A DNA stretch of 64,000 bases from Planctomycetaceae bacterium (GTDB lineage Bacteria; Planctomycetota; Planctomycetia; Pirellulales; PNKZ01). Position numbers and translations under genes: made by a program. Positions within the stretch are counted from its first letter, which is position 1; each line of letters begins with the position of its first letter. Shown piece by piece: positions 47,149 through 51,796 of this stretch. The stretch spans positions 186,001 through 250,000 of the forward strand of contig JAEUIN010000273.1 in assembly GCA_016793115.1 (NCBI GenBank). Reading direction: 5' to 3'. The notes under the pieces were generated by a model that saw only the letters and a program-made list of their open reading frames with translations, did no database searches and was not told the DNA's origin.

Positions 47149-47629
47149 CTCTCGTAAAACCTCCGAATATGCGAAAACAGCGGATGTGGGGAATGCGGCG
47201 GTGGAGCGCCGGGGGCGGCCTTCGCTCAACGCTTGGCCGTCTGAGCCTGCCAAACAGGCGCAGCCCGGGCGCAGGTGCGAGCCTGTAATGCAACGGGCGC
47301 GCCAAGCGGCGACTCTTCAATCGCAAGCACTTGACAGAGTTCAGCTTACATCGCCACACGACGTCTCTTGGTCCATACTGCTCACCTGCCATCGAAGTCT
47401 CTTTCGCGAAAAACAGCGGTGGCGCTGCCAATATGGCAGCAAGGTTGAGCGAACTACGAAGTGTTACTGACGGGTAGGCATTTAATCCCGAAAATCACGA
47501 GTCGAAAGCTTGCTGCAAGTAGACGCGCGTGATTCGTTGCGTGGGGCGAATTGCCCCCCTATGCTGCGTAGCATGCGGCCGGCAGCACTCTTGTTACTCG
47601 CTCTCCAATCGCCACGTGAGACCTTAAAG
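47149..47629. other. Divergent intergenic region groES / secreted unknown gene
   Basis: About 480 bases without a credible gene. It should hold the groESL promoter (minus) and the promoter for the gene at 47630 (plus). It contains a 17-base perfect inverted repeat and a TTTCGCGAAA palindrome at 47402-47411. No CIRCE-type TTAGCACTC-N9-GAGTGCTAA is present. Confidence 0.6.
47424..47440. promoter_or_regulatory. Perfect inverted repeat GCTGCCA-ATA-TGGCAGC
   Basis: Seven-base arms around ATA, a shape expected of a dimeric repressor/activator operator. It sits about 275 bases from groES and 190 from the divergent gene. A regulatory role is inferred from symmetry and place only. Confidence 0.4.
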
Positions 47630-49486
47630 ATGATCTCTCGATCCAGCAATTTCCTTTACGTCACGGCCCTCGTCCTATCAGCTCACTTCGGGGTGAGCGG
47701 TTCGATGGTCCCCGCACAGGCGCAAGCTCTGCCGCATTCGTTGGTCGCGTTGGCCCCGGCGACCGGCGACATACCGATCGACCTTAAAGTCGACGTGCTT
47801 AAGGTCGTTCCCGACGATGCGTTGGGCGTCGCGCTACTATCCGATTTCGATCAAACTCGTGACACGGTCGAGGCGGTTCTCCGCAAGCTCAAGATCCCCT
47901 TCGATACCTCGCGTGAATATGCCGACTTCAACGACTTCCTGGAACGGCTCGAGGGCTGGGACTTCAAAAGCACGCATGCCTTCGCCCTCGTCGGCGATCC
48001 GAAACGACCGCATCCGTTGATCTTTATTCCCGTCACGGACTACGCGAAATTCGCCAAGAGCCTTGAGGCCGAAACGACCGACGGCTCGCCGACCAAAGTG
48101 TCGACATTCGGCGAAGACTCCTTAATGGCCGAAAAAGCCGGCTTCGCCGTTTTCACCGAGCCGAGCGCGGGCGTCGAATACCTGCAATCGGTCGTCGATT
48201 CGAAGAGTTCGATCGCCGCGTCGTGCGAGCCGATTCGAGGCTGGCTGGCCAAGCAGCAGATCGCGGGCGTTGTGTTGTCGCCGTCGATTCAACTGGCCTG
48301 CGATGAAATGCTTAAGGGCCTGAAGGAATTGGAAACCGAATTGGAGCGGGCAAAAGACGACGACGAAAAGGCAAAGTTCGTTCCGATCGGGCAACTGGCT
48401 CGCGGAGTCGGCGTCTCGATTGTCGAGGCGGCCAAGCGCGAATTGACGCACCTGACGATCGGCGCACGCGTGAATGAGAAAACCGGCCTGGCATTTAACG
48501 GCCAAGCTTATTTCAAACCAGGCGGAAAGTTTTCCGAATTTGTAAAGGCGAGTGCGCCGTTGCCAGCGGATTGCCTCCGCAATTTACCCGACGAGCAGTA
48601 TGTCGCCGCGGGGGCCTACAAATACCCGCGCGAGAGCGTAAAAGCCTTTTCAGACTTCATGGAGAAAGTTCTCGACGAAGCGACGAAGTTGGAGGACTTA
48701 CCGTTTGACGCGGCGAAGCTCAAAGAGACGTTCGCGGAAGGGCGGAAGATGGTCGAACAGTTGGAGTTTATCGCGCAATCGCAAAGCGTGGCCGGCGCCA
48801 ATATGTACGACGGCGTTTTCGCCGTTTACCACGTCGACGATTCCGCTCTCTTTCTGCAGCGCAACAAAGCTGGAATGAAGAGCCTACTTGCGGCACTTGA
48901 GAAATTCAAAGATCAACTGACGGGCGTCAAGATCGGGGAGAAGAAGATCGGTGAGATCGAAGCGACGACAATGTCGATCGACCTCATCGACGTCATGAAA
49001 AAGTTCGGCGCCAAGGAAGACGCTCAACAAGAAATGGTCATGAAGAGCATGTTCGGCGGCGACGGAACGTTTACGTTTTACCTGGCCGCGGCGACGAAGG
49101 ATAAAGTCGTCATGTCATATAGCGAGTCGGGTCTAAAGCTGGTCTACGACGCCGCGAAGTCGGACGCTCCAGGACTTGCCGATGACGTGATGATCAAGAA
49201 GACCGCCGCTCTCCTACCTAGCGACGTGATGATGGCCGGCTACTTCGACATCGGCGGTTATCTGGAATTGATCAAGAAAGTCATGAACACGATGATGGCC
49301 GCGCAGGGGCAGGGCGCGTTCCCGATTCCGATTCCTCCGTTCCCGTCGTCGCCGCCGATCGGCTATACGTTCAAGGCGGCAAGCAACACCGCCTCGCTAG
49401 ATCTCGTCGTACCGATGGAACTCATGGAAAACACGCGCGACTACGTCATGCAAATGCAGGCGCTGATCGGCGCGTTCGCACGCTAA
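47630..49486 (+). CDS. Secreted planctomycete-type unknown protein
   Basis: A 618-residue exported protein with signal peptide (FLYVTALVLSAHFGVSGSMVPAQAQA). After it comes VVPDDALGVALLSDFDQTRD, then long alternating helix/strand segments that resemble DUF3352-type planctomycete proteins (a protein-level impression only), with a Lys/Glu-rich helix KELETELERAKDDDEKAKF near residue 230. The C-terminal part carries DVMMAGYFDIGGYLELIKKVMNTM and a Pro-rich loop. No catalytic motif. ATG 47630 is chosen because it opens the signal peptide. Confidence 0.78.
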   Translation: MISRSSNFLYVTALVLSAHFGVSGSMVPAQAQALPHSLVALAPATGDIPIDLKVDVLKVVPDDALGVALLSDFDQTRDTVEAVLRKLKIPFDTSREYADFNDFLERLEGWDFKSTHAFALVGDPKRPHPLIFIPVTDYAKFAKSLEAETTDGSPTKVSTFGEDSLMAEKAGFAVFTEPSAGVEYLQSVVDSKSSIAASCEPIRGWLAKQQIAGVVLSPSIQLACDEMLKGLKELETELERAKDDDEKAKFVPIGQLARGVGVSIVEAAKRELTHLTIGARVNEKTGLAFNGQAYFKPGGKFSEFVKASAPLPADCLRNLPDEQYVAAGAYKYPRESVKAFSDFMEKVLDEATKLEDLPFDAAKLKETFAEGRKMVEQLEFIAQSQSVAGANMYDGVFAVYHVDDSALFLQRNKAGMKSLLAALEKFKDQLTGVKIGEKKIGEIEATTMSIDLIDVMKKFGAKEDAQQEMVMKSMFGGDGTFTFYLAAATKDKVVMSYSESGLKLVYDAAKSDAPGLADDVMIKKTAALLPSDVMMAGYFDIGGYLELIKKVMNTMMAAQGQGAFPIPIPPFPSSPPIGYTFKAASNTASLDLVVPMELMENTRDYVMQMQALIGAFAR

Positions 49487-49610
49487 GCAATGCGCCGGAA
49501 GCCTCGAATTGAGGATGAAGAAGAGGCGAAAAGTCTTCCGCCGTCGAACTGCGGCAGCGGCTTCGAACTTCAGCATTTTTCGCCCGGAATTTCCCCTTAA
49601 AGGCTCGGCG

Positions 49611-49645
49611 TGACTTGGCCGATGATCATAGTCGTCGGCAAGTCA
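49611..49645 (+). ncRNA. Hairpin immediately 5' of the tRNA-Cys gene
   Basis: TGACTTG (49611-49617) pairs with CAAGTCA (49639-49645) and CCGA (49619-49622) with TCGG (49635-49638), giving 11 pairs with one bulged G and a 12-base loop that includes TGATCA. It ends one base before the mature tRNA 5' end, so it may be a structured leader, processing signal or part of a larger RNA. Confidence 0.5.
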
Positions 49646-49646
49646 T

Positions 49647-49717
49647 GAGGATGGAGCCAGACGGCCAGGCACCCGGCTGCAACCCGGTTGAAGTGGGTTC
49701 GACTCCCACCGTCCTCT
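49647..49717 (+). tRNA. Non-canonical tRNA-Cys (anticodon GCA)
   Basis: A 71-base cloverleaf with anticodon GCA at 49679-49681 in the loop CTGCAAC. The acceptor GAGGATG pairs with CGTCCTC (one T-G pair). The T-loop TTCGACT is canonical and the D-arm is GCC/GGC with GG in the loop. Departures from the norm: position 8 is G rather than T, position 14 is not A, and the anticodon stem has one terminal C-T mismatch. G8 can instead pair with C65, giving an 8-bp acceptor and a 4-bp T-stem (8/4 form). Minor cysteine tRNAs with such 8/4 shapes have been reported in bacteria. The discriminator is T; CCA is not encoded. Confidence 0.75.
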
Positions 49718-49736
49718 CTTCGCGGATCTCGTTGGA

Positions 49737-49781
49737 CCCCCGACGTCGGGCGATAAACTCGACGTCGGGGGTTTCTCATTT
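49737..49781 (+). terminator. Strong terminator downstream of the tRNA-Cys gene
   Basis: CCCCCGACGTCG (49737-49748) and CGACGTCGGGGG (49760-49771) form a perfect 12-bp stem with an 11-base loop, followed by TTTCTCATTT. It lies 20 bases after the tRNA, showing that the RNA is a stand-alone transcript ending here. Confidence 0.85.
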
Positions 49782-49834: not shown

Positions 49835-50764
49835 TTACACGCGAGCGGCAAACCGGCGCGCTTGTGCGGCGATGTCGATGCCGACCTCTTCGCTCCACGC
49901 GGCGAGCAGTTTGCGGTAAGTCGGCCCCGGCTTCCCGTCGCCGATCGGCAAGTCATCGAGCGCCACGACCGGCAACACGCAGAACGGCGTGCTCGTCAGC
50001 ATCAACTCAACGAACTCATCGGCCAATTTCGCCGGCTGCGATTGGCCGGAGGAAAACTCTCGCATCGCTAGGACTTGGTACGCCAGTTCGTGCAGCGTCG
50101 CTTGGCTGATGCCCGGCAAGATGCCCTCTCGCAGCGGCGTCCAGAGCGTCCCAAACTTCGTGAGCCCGACTACGTTTGCCGTCGACGTCTCGTTGACGTA
50201 GCCGCGCTCGTCAAGCAGAAGGGCTCGCGTGCCCGGAATGCGCCGACTTACTTCTTGATCGGCCAGATAATAGTGCATGCGGCTGCGGCATTTCATTTCG
50301 CGCGGCCACGATTCGGCGGGAACCTGGCGGACCTTGCTCGTCGCCAACCGCTCGCCTCCGTCGTACTTTTGGGCCCAGTTGCGAAACGGCAAGGGATACG
50401 TGCTCATACCGATCGTGGCGCGCCGCGGTACATTCGGCGGCGCAAAGGTGCCATAAGGTCCCGGTGTCACGAAGAGCGACAATCCGAGATCGTCGGCCGG
50501 ATCGAGCAGCTTATGATTCGCCGCGACGAGTTCTTCAGCCCAAGCGGCGAATTCTTCGACGGTGCAGCCTGGGTCGATCGCGGCGATCTCCAGTCCGCGA
50601 CGTAGTCGCGAAAGGTGCTCGGTCAGCTTGAAGAGCCGGCCGCCGAACGTGCGCAGTTGTTCGCTCACCGTCGCGCCGAGCACGAAGCCGGCGTCGTACG
50701 CCGGTATCGTCAACTCGTCCGCCGGAATCATTCGTCCGTTCAAAAATGCCCAAGACTTTCGCAT
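49835..50764 (-). CDS. Class IV PLP aminotransferase (second copy)
   Basis: A 309-residue fold-type IV PLP enzyme related to the one at 43.0 kb: AFLNGRMIPADELTIPAYDAGFVLGATVSE at the N-terminus, Lys box EMKCRSRMHYYLADQEV, and RALLLDERGYVNETSTANVV. The Glu-x-x-x-x-N end (NETSTANV in place of TEGxxxN) differs from standard branched-chain enzymes, so D-amino-acid aminotransferase or aminodeoxychorismate lyase activity is possible. ATG 50764 is preferred over TTG 50797. It is divergent from the Gfo/Idh gene, with only 66 bases between the starts. Confidence 0.87.
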   Translation of the reverse strand: MRKSWAFLNGRMIPADELTIPAYDAGFVLGATVSEQLRTFGGRLFKLTEHLSRLRRGLEIAAIDPGCTVEEFAAWAEELVAANHKLLDPADDLGLSLFVTPGPYGTFAPPNVPRRATIGMSTYPLPFRNWAQKYDGGERLATSKVRQVPAESWPREMKCRSRMHYYLADQEVSRRIPGTRALLLDERGYVNETSTANVVGLTKFGTLWTPLREGILPGISQATLHELAYQVLAMREFSSGQSQPAKLADEFVELMLTSTPFCVLPVVALDDLPIGDGKPGPTYRKLLAAWSEEVGIDIAAQARRFAARV

Positions 50765-50830
50765 CGTGCTATTATGCTCCGGCGCGGCCGCGATCAAAAA
50801 CTAAAAACCAATAACCGAAAACTCTGCTTT

Positions 50831-51796
50831 ATGTCGCAACGTCTTCGCATCGGCATCCTCGGCTGTGCCCGCATCGTTCGCCGTTCGATCGCCGGCGCGT
50901 TGAAGAATCACCCGTCGGCGACATGGCACGGCCTCGCCGGACGCGACGCCGCGACGGCGGCCGCTTGGGCGCACGAATTCGGGGTGCCCAAGCACTACGG
51001 TTCCTACGAAGCCCTGGTCAGCGATCCCGAGATTGACGCCGTTTATCTGCCGCTCCCCAACGAGTTGCATCGACCTTGGGCGCTGGCGGCGGCGGCCGCC
51101 GGCAAACATGTGCTGTGCGAAAAACCGTTGGCGCTCGACGTCGCCGACGCCGAATGCATCGTCGAGGGCTGCCGCGCCGCAGGCGTCGTCATGATGGAAG
51201 CCTTCATGTGGCGGCACCATCCGCGCGTCGCCTTAGCGCGGCATATGATCGCCGACGGCAAGCTCGGAGCGCTACGCTTTGTAAAGATGGACTTTTCGTT
51301 CCCGATCGATTTAGGCGACTGGCGCCTCGACGCCGCTCGCGGCGGAGGAGCGCTCTACGACCTCGGCTGCTACGGAATTAACATCTCGCGGCTCTTCACC
51401 GGCGCGGAGCCGTCGGAGGTGCACGCGCGAGCCCGATACCGCTCCCCCGGCGTCGACATGTCGCTCGGCATGCAACTCACGTTTCCCGACGGCGTGCAGG
51501 CCCTGCTCGATGCGAGCTTCGAATGCCCGAACCGCAACCGCTTCGAATTGATCGGCACGCAGGGAATGCTCGAATTTCTCGAAGGCGTGCTCCCACAACT
51601 GGAATCGACGATTCACTACAAGACCGATTCCGGAACCGAGGTCATTCGCATTCCGGCCGCGGATCAATACGCGGAAATGATCTCCTGTTTCGTCCGCTCG
51701 GTCGCGGCGGGCCGACTTGAAACGCCGGCCGAAGACGGGTTGGCAAACATGCGCGTCGTCCAACAAGTACGCGATGCGGCGCTCGCCGAGGTCTAG
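50831..51796 (+). CDS. Gfo/Idh/MocA-family oxidoreductase (cytoplasmic)
   Basis: A 321-residue NAD(P)-dependent dehydrogenase without export signal. The Rossmann loop is IGILGCARIVRRSIAGAL, the catalytic/NAD motif VLCEKPLALD, and MMEAFMWRHHPRV is typical of the sugar/dihydrodiol dehydrogenase subgroup. Substrate is unknown, probably a sugar or its derivative. It differs from the Tat-exported paralogue at 20.3 kb in length and motifs. Confidence 0.92.
   Translation: MSQRLRIGILGCARIVRRSIAGALKNHPSATWHGLAGRDAATAAAWAHEFGVPKHYGSYEALVSDPEIDAVYLPLPNELHRPWALAAAAAGKHVLCEKPLALDVADAECIVEGCRAAGVVMMEAFMWRHHPRVALARHMIADGKLGALRFVKMDFSFPIDLGDWRLDAARGGGALYDLGCYGINISRLFTGAEPSEVHARARYRSPGVDMSLGMQLTFPDGVQALLDASFECPNRNRFELIGTQGMLEFLEGVLPQLESTIHYKTDSGTEVIRIPAADQYAEMISCFVRSVAAGRLETPAEDGLANMRVVQQVRDAALAEV

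Follow-up and report, generated by a model that had tools for sequence, protein, structure and literature searches.

The 64-kb stretch of planctomycete DNA analyzed here (the window) carries a single tRNA gene, a tRNA-Cys with an unusual core that stands between two pronounced stem-loops. Does this gene provide the cell with its ordinary cysteine tRNA, has it been kept for some other task, or is it a remnant in decay?

Results

A tRNA-Cys with an aberrant core

ARAGORN finds one tRNA in the entire window, a tRNA-Cys(GCA) whose 3' end lies at 49717/8, and the Rfam covariance search with RF00005 scores it at 46.6 bits against a cut-off of 29, as befits a cloverleaf tRNA. An earlier note on this DNA, made from its letters, is thereby borne out in its recognition of a tRNA with a GCA anticodon, and its remark that position 8 is a G and that no A occupies position 14 agrees with what we see in the sequence. 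The locus comprises the following features.

47510..49486, plus strand: upstream protein with no Pfam match, conserved neighbor in f1 genomes (synteny cluster 7)
49610..49646, plus strand: leader hairpin of ~16 pairs, flush with G1 of the tRNA (folds; outlier among 48 tRNA leaders; alignment)
49647..49717, plus strand: minor tRNA-Cys (GCA), 71 nt (ARAGORN; Rfam RF00005; kept in 17 other sampled genomes)
49734..49774, no strand given: G+C-rich long stem-loop, probably a transcription terminator (fold z -4.4; between the tail-to-tail tRNA and aminotransferase genes)
49835..50797, minus strand: aminotransferase class IV gene, conserved tail-to-tail neighbor (Pfam PF01063; synteny)
50759..51796, plus strand: Gfo/Idh/MocA-type oxidoreductase, conserved neighbor, start approximate (Pfam PF01408, PF22725; synteny)

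The tRNA has U73 as its discriminator and lacks an encoded CCA, as do the other tRNAs of its genome (G000). Position 8 is a G, the canonical A14 is missing or replaced, and position 48 is an A. Among the 48 distinct tRNAs of this genome, position 8 is a U in 45 and an A in two tRNA-Ser species, and it is a G solely in the tRNA-Cys of the window. Three tRNA-Ser genes score below it, so that it is not the lowest scorer of the genome. A C27.U43 mismatch is private to the window copy, while the other stem pairs are kept when the copies of this type are compared.

These peculiarities belong to a type of gene, which we call solitary and which is marked by the acceptor sequence GAGG[A/C]UG. The near-universal U8-A14 tertiary pair, whose loss usually harms tRNA function, is absent from it throughout: G8 and a position 14 that is either G or deleted are invariant across all solitary copies. 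Likewise, all 12 distinct solitary sequences have A48, whereas the canonical tRNA-Cys copies combine G15 with C48; the 15-48 pair is part of CysRS recognition in E. coli. The same 12 sequences, without exception, retain U73 and the GCA anticodon that characterize a tRNA-Cys, and U33, A37 and the T loop are intact. The retained features, together with compensated stems, fit a tRNA that would be processed, CCA-tailed and charged by CysRS; the loss of the U8-A14 and 15-48 pairs suggests that its charging or use may be unlike that of the normal tRNA-Cys.

Two canonical tRNA-Cys genes and one CysRS

The gene in the window is the third tRNA-Cys of its genome; contig C271 holds the two canonical tRNA-Cys(GCA) genes, separated by 1.6 kb. 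The earlier note had looked to a second, canonical tRNA-Cys as support for a special role and had held that a sole tRNA-Cys with an unconserved hairpin would speak against it; two such genes are present. Canonical copies were found in 18 of the 21 genomes checked, two in each of the four congeners, and the three genomes with no match rank near the bottom of the set in completeness (75-83%). With the canonical copies of its own genome, the window tRNA has in common the GCA anticodon, U73, an A13/A22 mismatch, a possible 7/5 fold and the lack of an encoded CCA. In the solitary type, by contrast, the canonical U8, A14 and C48 are replaced, C32/C38 occur in the anticodon loop, the anticodon arm reads CCGGCUGCAACCCGG instead of the canonical GCGGAUUGCAAAUCCGC, and the mean identity to the canonical copy of the same genome is 66.6%. 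All four congeners retain the canonical pair, even though one gene each serves most other anticodons, and a gene for a predicted secreted protein lies between its members (L014 and L029, contig C271). Identical tRNA-Pro(GGG) and tRNA-Ser(GGA) genes on different contigs (L065/L066 and L075/L076) may perhaps reflect assembly duplication or contamination, which is estimated at 7.9%.

A PF01406 search finds one CysRS per genome and one full CysRS in G000; other matches, which are short, partial and in other open frames, we read as related synthetases. A dedicated second CysRS was consequently rejected, as none was found. The CysRS proteins of G005 and G011 (L241, L242) sit on very long branches of the CysRS tree, which suggests replacement by gene transfer.

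Distribution and inheritance of one locus

A pattern search with at most two mismatches in 397 genomes of the order (Pirellulales-type) matched 24, of which 18 hold the GAGG type without mismatch; the rest differ in the acceptor and represent a type found in tRNA arrays. By our own count of sampled genomes, the solitary type thus occurs in 18 of 23 members of families f1, f2, f5, f14 and f19, and in none of about 374 others. An acceptor-blind pattern yielded 48 loci in GTDB species genomes, nearly all in planctomycete-titled records, and in that scan the GAGG type appeared only in Pirellulales-like records, e.g., Pirellula sp. PB1.007 and UWPOB_PLAC3.

In ten genomes an aminotransferase class IV gene, the same in each, faces the solitary gene tail-to-tail, and the same Gfo/Idh/MocA gene adjoins it in four more, so that conserved neighbors are present in 14 in total. 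No second tRNA was found near any of ten solitary loci scanned over 5-20 kb. On the CysRS tree, possession of the solitary tRNA requires 3 changes, where shuffled labels need 9.7, and an AU test does not reject one clade (p-AU 0.186). The family-limited spread, the synteny and this clustering argue together for vertical inheritance of one locus. The gene is missing from some f1 and f2 members (G004, G005, G026, G050 and G074), which reflects either loss or late acquisition; G004 (L243) still has the aminotransferase and oxidoreductase genes side by side at the corresponding place, and no remnant of the tRNA was found there. A mobile-element or plasmid origin of the solitary copy itself was rejected, since the array-type sequence has no plasmid match and the synteny is conserved.

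Conservation on a par with the canonical gene

Across families, the 15 genomes that hold both genes show 93.3% identity in the solitary tRNA-Cys and 93.8% in the canonical one. Among the four congeners the solitary tRNA is nearly invariant in an alignment in which its flanks hardly align. Where stem positions of the solitary type do vary, they change as pairs (A-U or C-G at 5-68; C-G or U-A at 28-42), and pair 3-70 is G-C in all solitary genes but C-G in the array copies. Array rows with one extra variable-loop base were misregistered in the position table and were left out. All 18 solitary copies score between 43.7 and 49.9 bits with RF00005. Judged by its sequence, the odd tRNA-Cys is not in decay but is conserved like a normal gene across five families.

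This bears directly on the possibility that it is a decaying, no longer functional relic of a tRNA array. G8, the missing A14 and the window-private C27.U43 mismatch would suit such a relic, and tRNA clusters of planctomycetes have been described as degenerate (PMC4807772). A cross-family identity equal to that of the canonical tRNA-Cys, compensatory changes within barely alignable surroundings and the scores of all 18 copies largely contradict it, however, and we consider a relic very improbable.

Flanking hairpins

The leader hairpin (-21.9 kcal/mol, z about -5 against shuffles) ranks first among the 48 tRNA leaders of G000 when stability is expressed relative to shuffles (z -5.5; runner-up -3.1). 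The strong hairpin noticed earlier is therefore real, although it has ~16 pairs rather than 11 and abuts the tRNA directly instead of ending one base before it. Only the congeners G001 and G003 have a homologue of this hairpin, which is less stable there and carries some compensating changes low in the stem; folds and alignment show none in the third congener, G002, an unrelated one in G006 and none that is consistent in other families. A conserved leader RNA element was consequently rejected, as the hairpin is confined to three congeners, is absent in the fourth and is inconsistent elsewhere. It is a lineage feature outside the conserved gene that perhaps protects or shapes the precursor. The support that the earlier note had sought, another tRNA-Cys and conservation of the odd one together with its hairpin in relatives, thus came in part: the other genes exist and the tRNA is conserved across five families, but the hairpin accompanies it in two congeners only.

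Nineteen bases 3' of the tRNA begins the second stem-loop, with a perfect 12-bp core from 49737, ~17 pairs and a stability of -33.1 kcal/mol (z -4.4). The 12-bp stem of what had been called a strong terminator 20 bases on is hence present, whereas its strength is doubtful: the U tract is weak (UUUCUCAUUU; as a T tract, TTTCTCATTT) and a scan for terminators gave no call there. In G002 and G003 this position is taken by unrelated stem-loops followed by six T, which makes termination there plausible with a sequence that is free to change. No sigma-70 promoter was found in a search that is uninformative for this phylum. A block at 49597-49608, TTAAAGGCTCGG, which lies about 40-50 bases 5' of the tRNA and has similar counterparts in G003 and G006, is a possible promoter element. 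Other Rfam elements were rejected; the tymovirus and mascRNA entries, which are tRNA-like, matched below threshold by chance.

Kinship with tRNAs of planctomycete arrays

Clusters of partially degraded tRNAs have already been reported in Planctomycetes as "degenerate tRNA gene clusters" (PMC4807772); our literature search on tRNA-Cys found no publication on planctomycete tRNA-Cys. The core of the solitary type (G8, A9, a short D loop and A48) recurs in the tRNA-Cys that ends long tRNA arrays of many Planctomycetia, typically after Trp-Thr-Arg-Arg-Arg, and the window tRNA bears the full array-type signature of G8-A9, short D loop, CUGCAA[A/C] loop and A48. With the Cys of such clusters and arrays (PMC4807772; PMC5966550) it also has in common the GCCAGAYGGC D arm and the lack of CCA. 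It differs from them in standing alone at a syntenic locus, in an acceptor stem of its own (GAGG[A/C]UG instead of GACGCUG or AACGCUG; G3-C70 instead of C3-G70) and in not being sporadic within its families. The arrays are sporadic, as 20 of 398 genomes in the class contain a match to the pattern of one array-type Cys; both types coexist in G003, G007, G010, G019, G024 and G035. The broad occurrence of the array type, next to the narrow one of the solitary type, suggests an array origin for the solitary gene.

Long arrays at L080 (G007), L081 (G003), L082 (G031), L085 (G026), L087 (G027), L114 and L132 have a nearly common order, Phe-Glu-Pro-Ile-Lys ... Trp-Thr-Arg-Arg-Arg-Cys, with up to about 40 genes in some of them, and U8 is lacking in 85 of 242 array tRNAs. 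Near one array lies a serine recombinase gene (L080:16449-18110). An array of 26 tRNA genes on a 103 kb IMG/VR contig (L158:223-5080) contains an array-like tRNA-Cys and encloses a gene for an HNH endonuclease; this viral contig is a possible vehicle for array-type tRNAs.

8/4 and 7/5 folds

The alternative 8/4 acceptor/T-stem pairing proposed in the earlier note can form, but it is not supported over the 7/5 fold. The two differ by 0.2 kcal/mol in the window tRNA (-25.3 for 8/4, -25.5 for 7/5), and ensemble pair probabilities are 0.62 for G8-C65 and 0.32 for G49-C65, with equal values in a congener; the 5-bp T stem is intact in array homologues that have A8. An 8/4 fold is therefore possible in the model but is unsupported by the comparison of homologues. 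The selC* tRNA-Cys, defined by an 8/4 structure, an A51a bulge and a long variable arm (PMC7609411), is likewise a minor tRNA-Cys of unusual structure and also has GCA and U73. The window tRNA, however, falls outside that group, as it has no T-stem bulge and a 4-nt variable loop; it belongs to another phylum and is accompanied by one full CysRS, whereas some selC* lineages have a second CysRS or SelB copy.

Discussion

Our discussion starts from what is directly observed, namely the gene, two canonical copies, its conservation, its synteny, its array kinship and one CysRS. As two canonical genes exist and the odd tRNA is conserved at one syntenic locus, the window gene is an extra, non-housekeeping tRNA-Cys. 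The proposal of a regulatory or special-purpose RNA thus holds insofar as the molecule is not the housekeeping tRNA-Cys; its regulatory part is not supported, since conservation covers just the tRNA itself. A suppressor was rejected, since a GCA anticodon does not read stop codons and hence makes no ordinary suppressor.

On balance, though with modest assurance, we favor an auxiliary tRNA-Cys gene that descends from the planctomycete array tRNA-Cys and became established at a single chromosomal site during the ancestry of the five families. The window tRNA would be transcribed alone as leader hairpin, tRNA and terminator, and its precursor would be trimmed before a CCA-adding enzyme supplies the CCA end. 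The single housekeeping CysRS would then charge it through U73 and the GCA anticodon, so that it could decode UGU and UGC codons as a reserve cysteine acceptor. Its altered elbow, with no U8-A14 and a different 15-48 pair, and its different anticodon arm may evade a limit on the normal tRNA-Cys, for which a modification or a tRNA-cleaving toxin are candidates; the advantage gained would lie there. Several points speak against an auxiliary acceptor. Cysteine is a rare amino acid for which two canonical genes are in place, so that the need for a further decoder is not obvious; U8-A14 is lost, the 15-48 pair is not kept, the C27.U43 mismatch is private, and some f1 and f2 members do without the gene.

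A bolder version, which we offer tentatively and regard as rather unlikely in its entirety, holds that a mobile-array tRNA-Cys was recruited as a fixed gene for a dedicated role outside housekeeping, as a resistant reserve or a non-ribosomal cysteine donor, its alternative elbow core with no U8-A14 being under selection as strong as that on the normal tRNA-Cys.

Should resistance to nucleases or stress be the main purpose, the gene would replace housekeeping tRNA-Cys cut by a toxin or a defense system, as phage tRNAs do. The divergent anticodon arm suits this explanation, and the source arrays look mobile, given their sporadic occurrence, the serine recombinase near one of them and the array-like tRNA-Cys on a viral contig. 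By analogy, changes in the anticodon loop let phage tRNAs escape anticodon nucleases (PMC10264068), and tRNAs of phages are able to evade defense (PMC11555353); an extra isoacceptor, an altered anticodon arm and array kin on viral contigs are common to both cases. Unlike such phage tRNAs, the window tRNA is chromosomal and vertically inherited, and its nuclease, a tRNA-Cys-specific toxin, is hypothetical; moreover, UGCAA of the anticodon loop is identical in both tRNA-Cys types. We judge resistance as the main purpose to be unlikely.

Quite unlikely, in our estimate, is a role as a non-ribosomal cysteine donor or regulatory tRNA, e.g., for an aminoacyl-tRNA-dependent ligase or in the sensing of cysteine or stress. 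Such a role would account for strong conservation with no need of decoding capacity, for an altered core conserved as such, and for the three GCA genes of clearly different make in G000, where other anticodons have one distinct gene (CAU, common to different tRNAs, aside). The leader hairpin is not conserved, though, and no functionally linked gene is, the neighbors being tail-to-tail metabolic genes. A PEARL/LanB ligase partner was rejected, as the LanB-type/PEARL family PF04738 is absent from all solitary-bearing genomes tested.

An 8/4, selC*-like cysteine tRNA that works with a CysRS or elongation factor of its own, for which the possible G8-C65 pair would speak, can be practically dismissed in view of the energy tie, the 5-bp T stems of the A8 homologues, the missing bulge and long arm, and the single CysRS.

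The usual view of tRNA arrays is that mobile elements or phages carry them as dispensable baggage. Degenerate tRNA clusters of planctomycetes are known; what this locus adds is, most likely, an array-type tRNA-Cys that became a single gene, fixed and strongly conserved. As a conserved tRNA that does without U8-A14, it makes the need for that pair testable, and as a syntenic gene conserved like a housekeeping one, it provides a simple, deletable case for the function of odd tRNAs.
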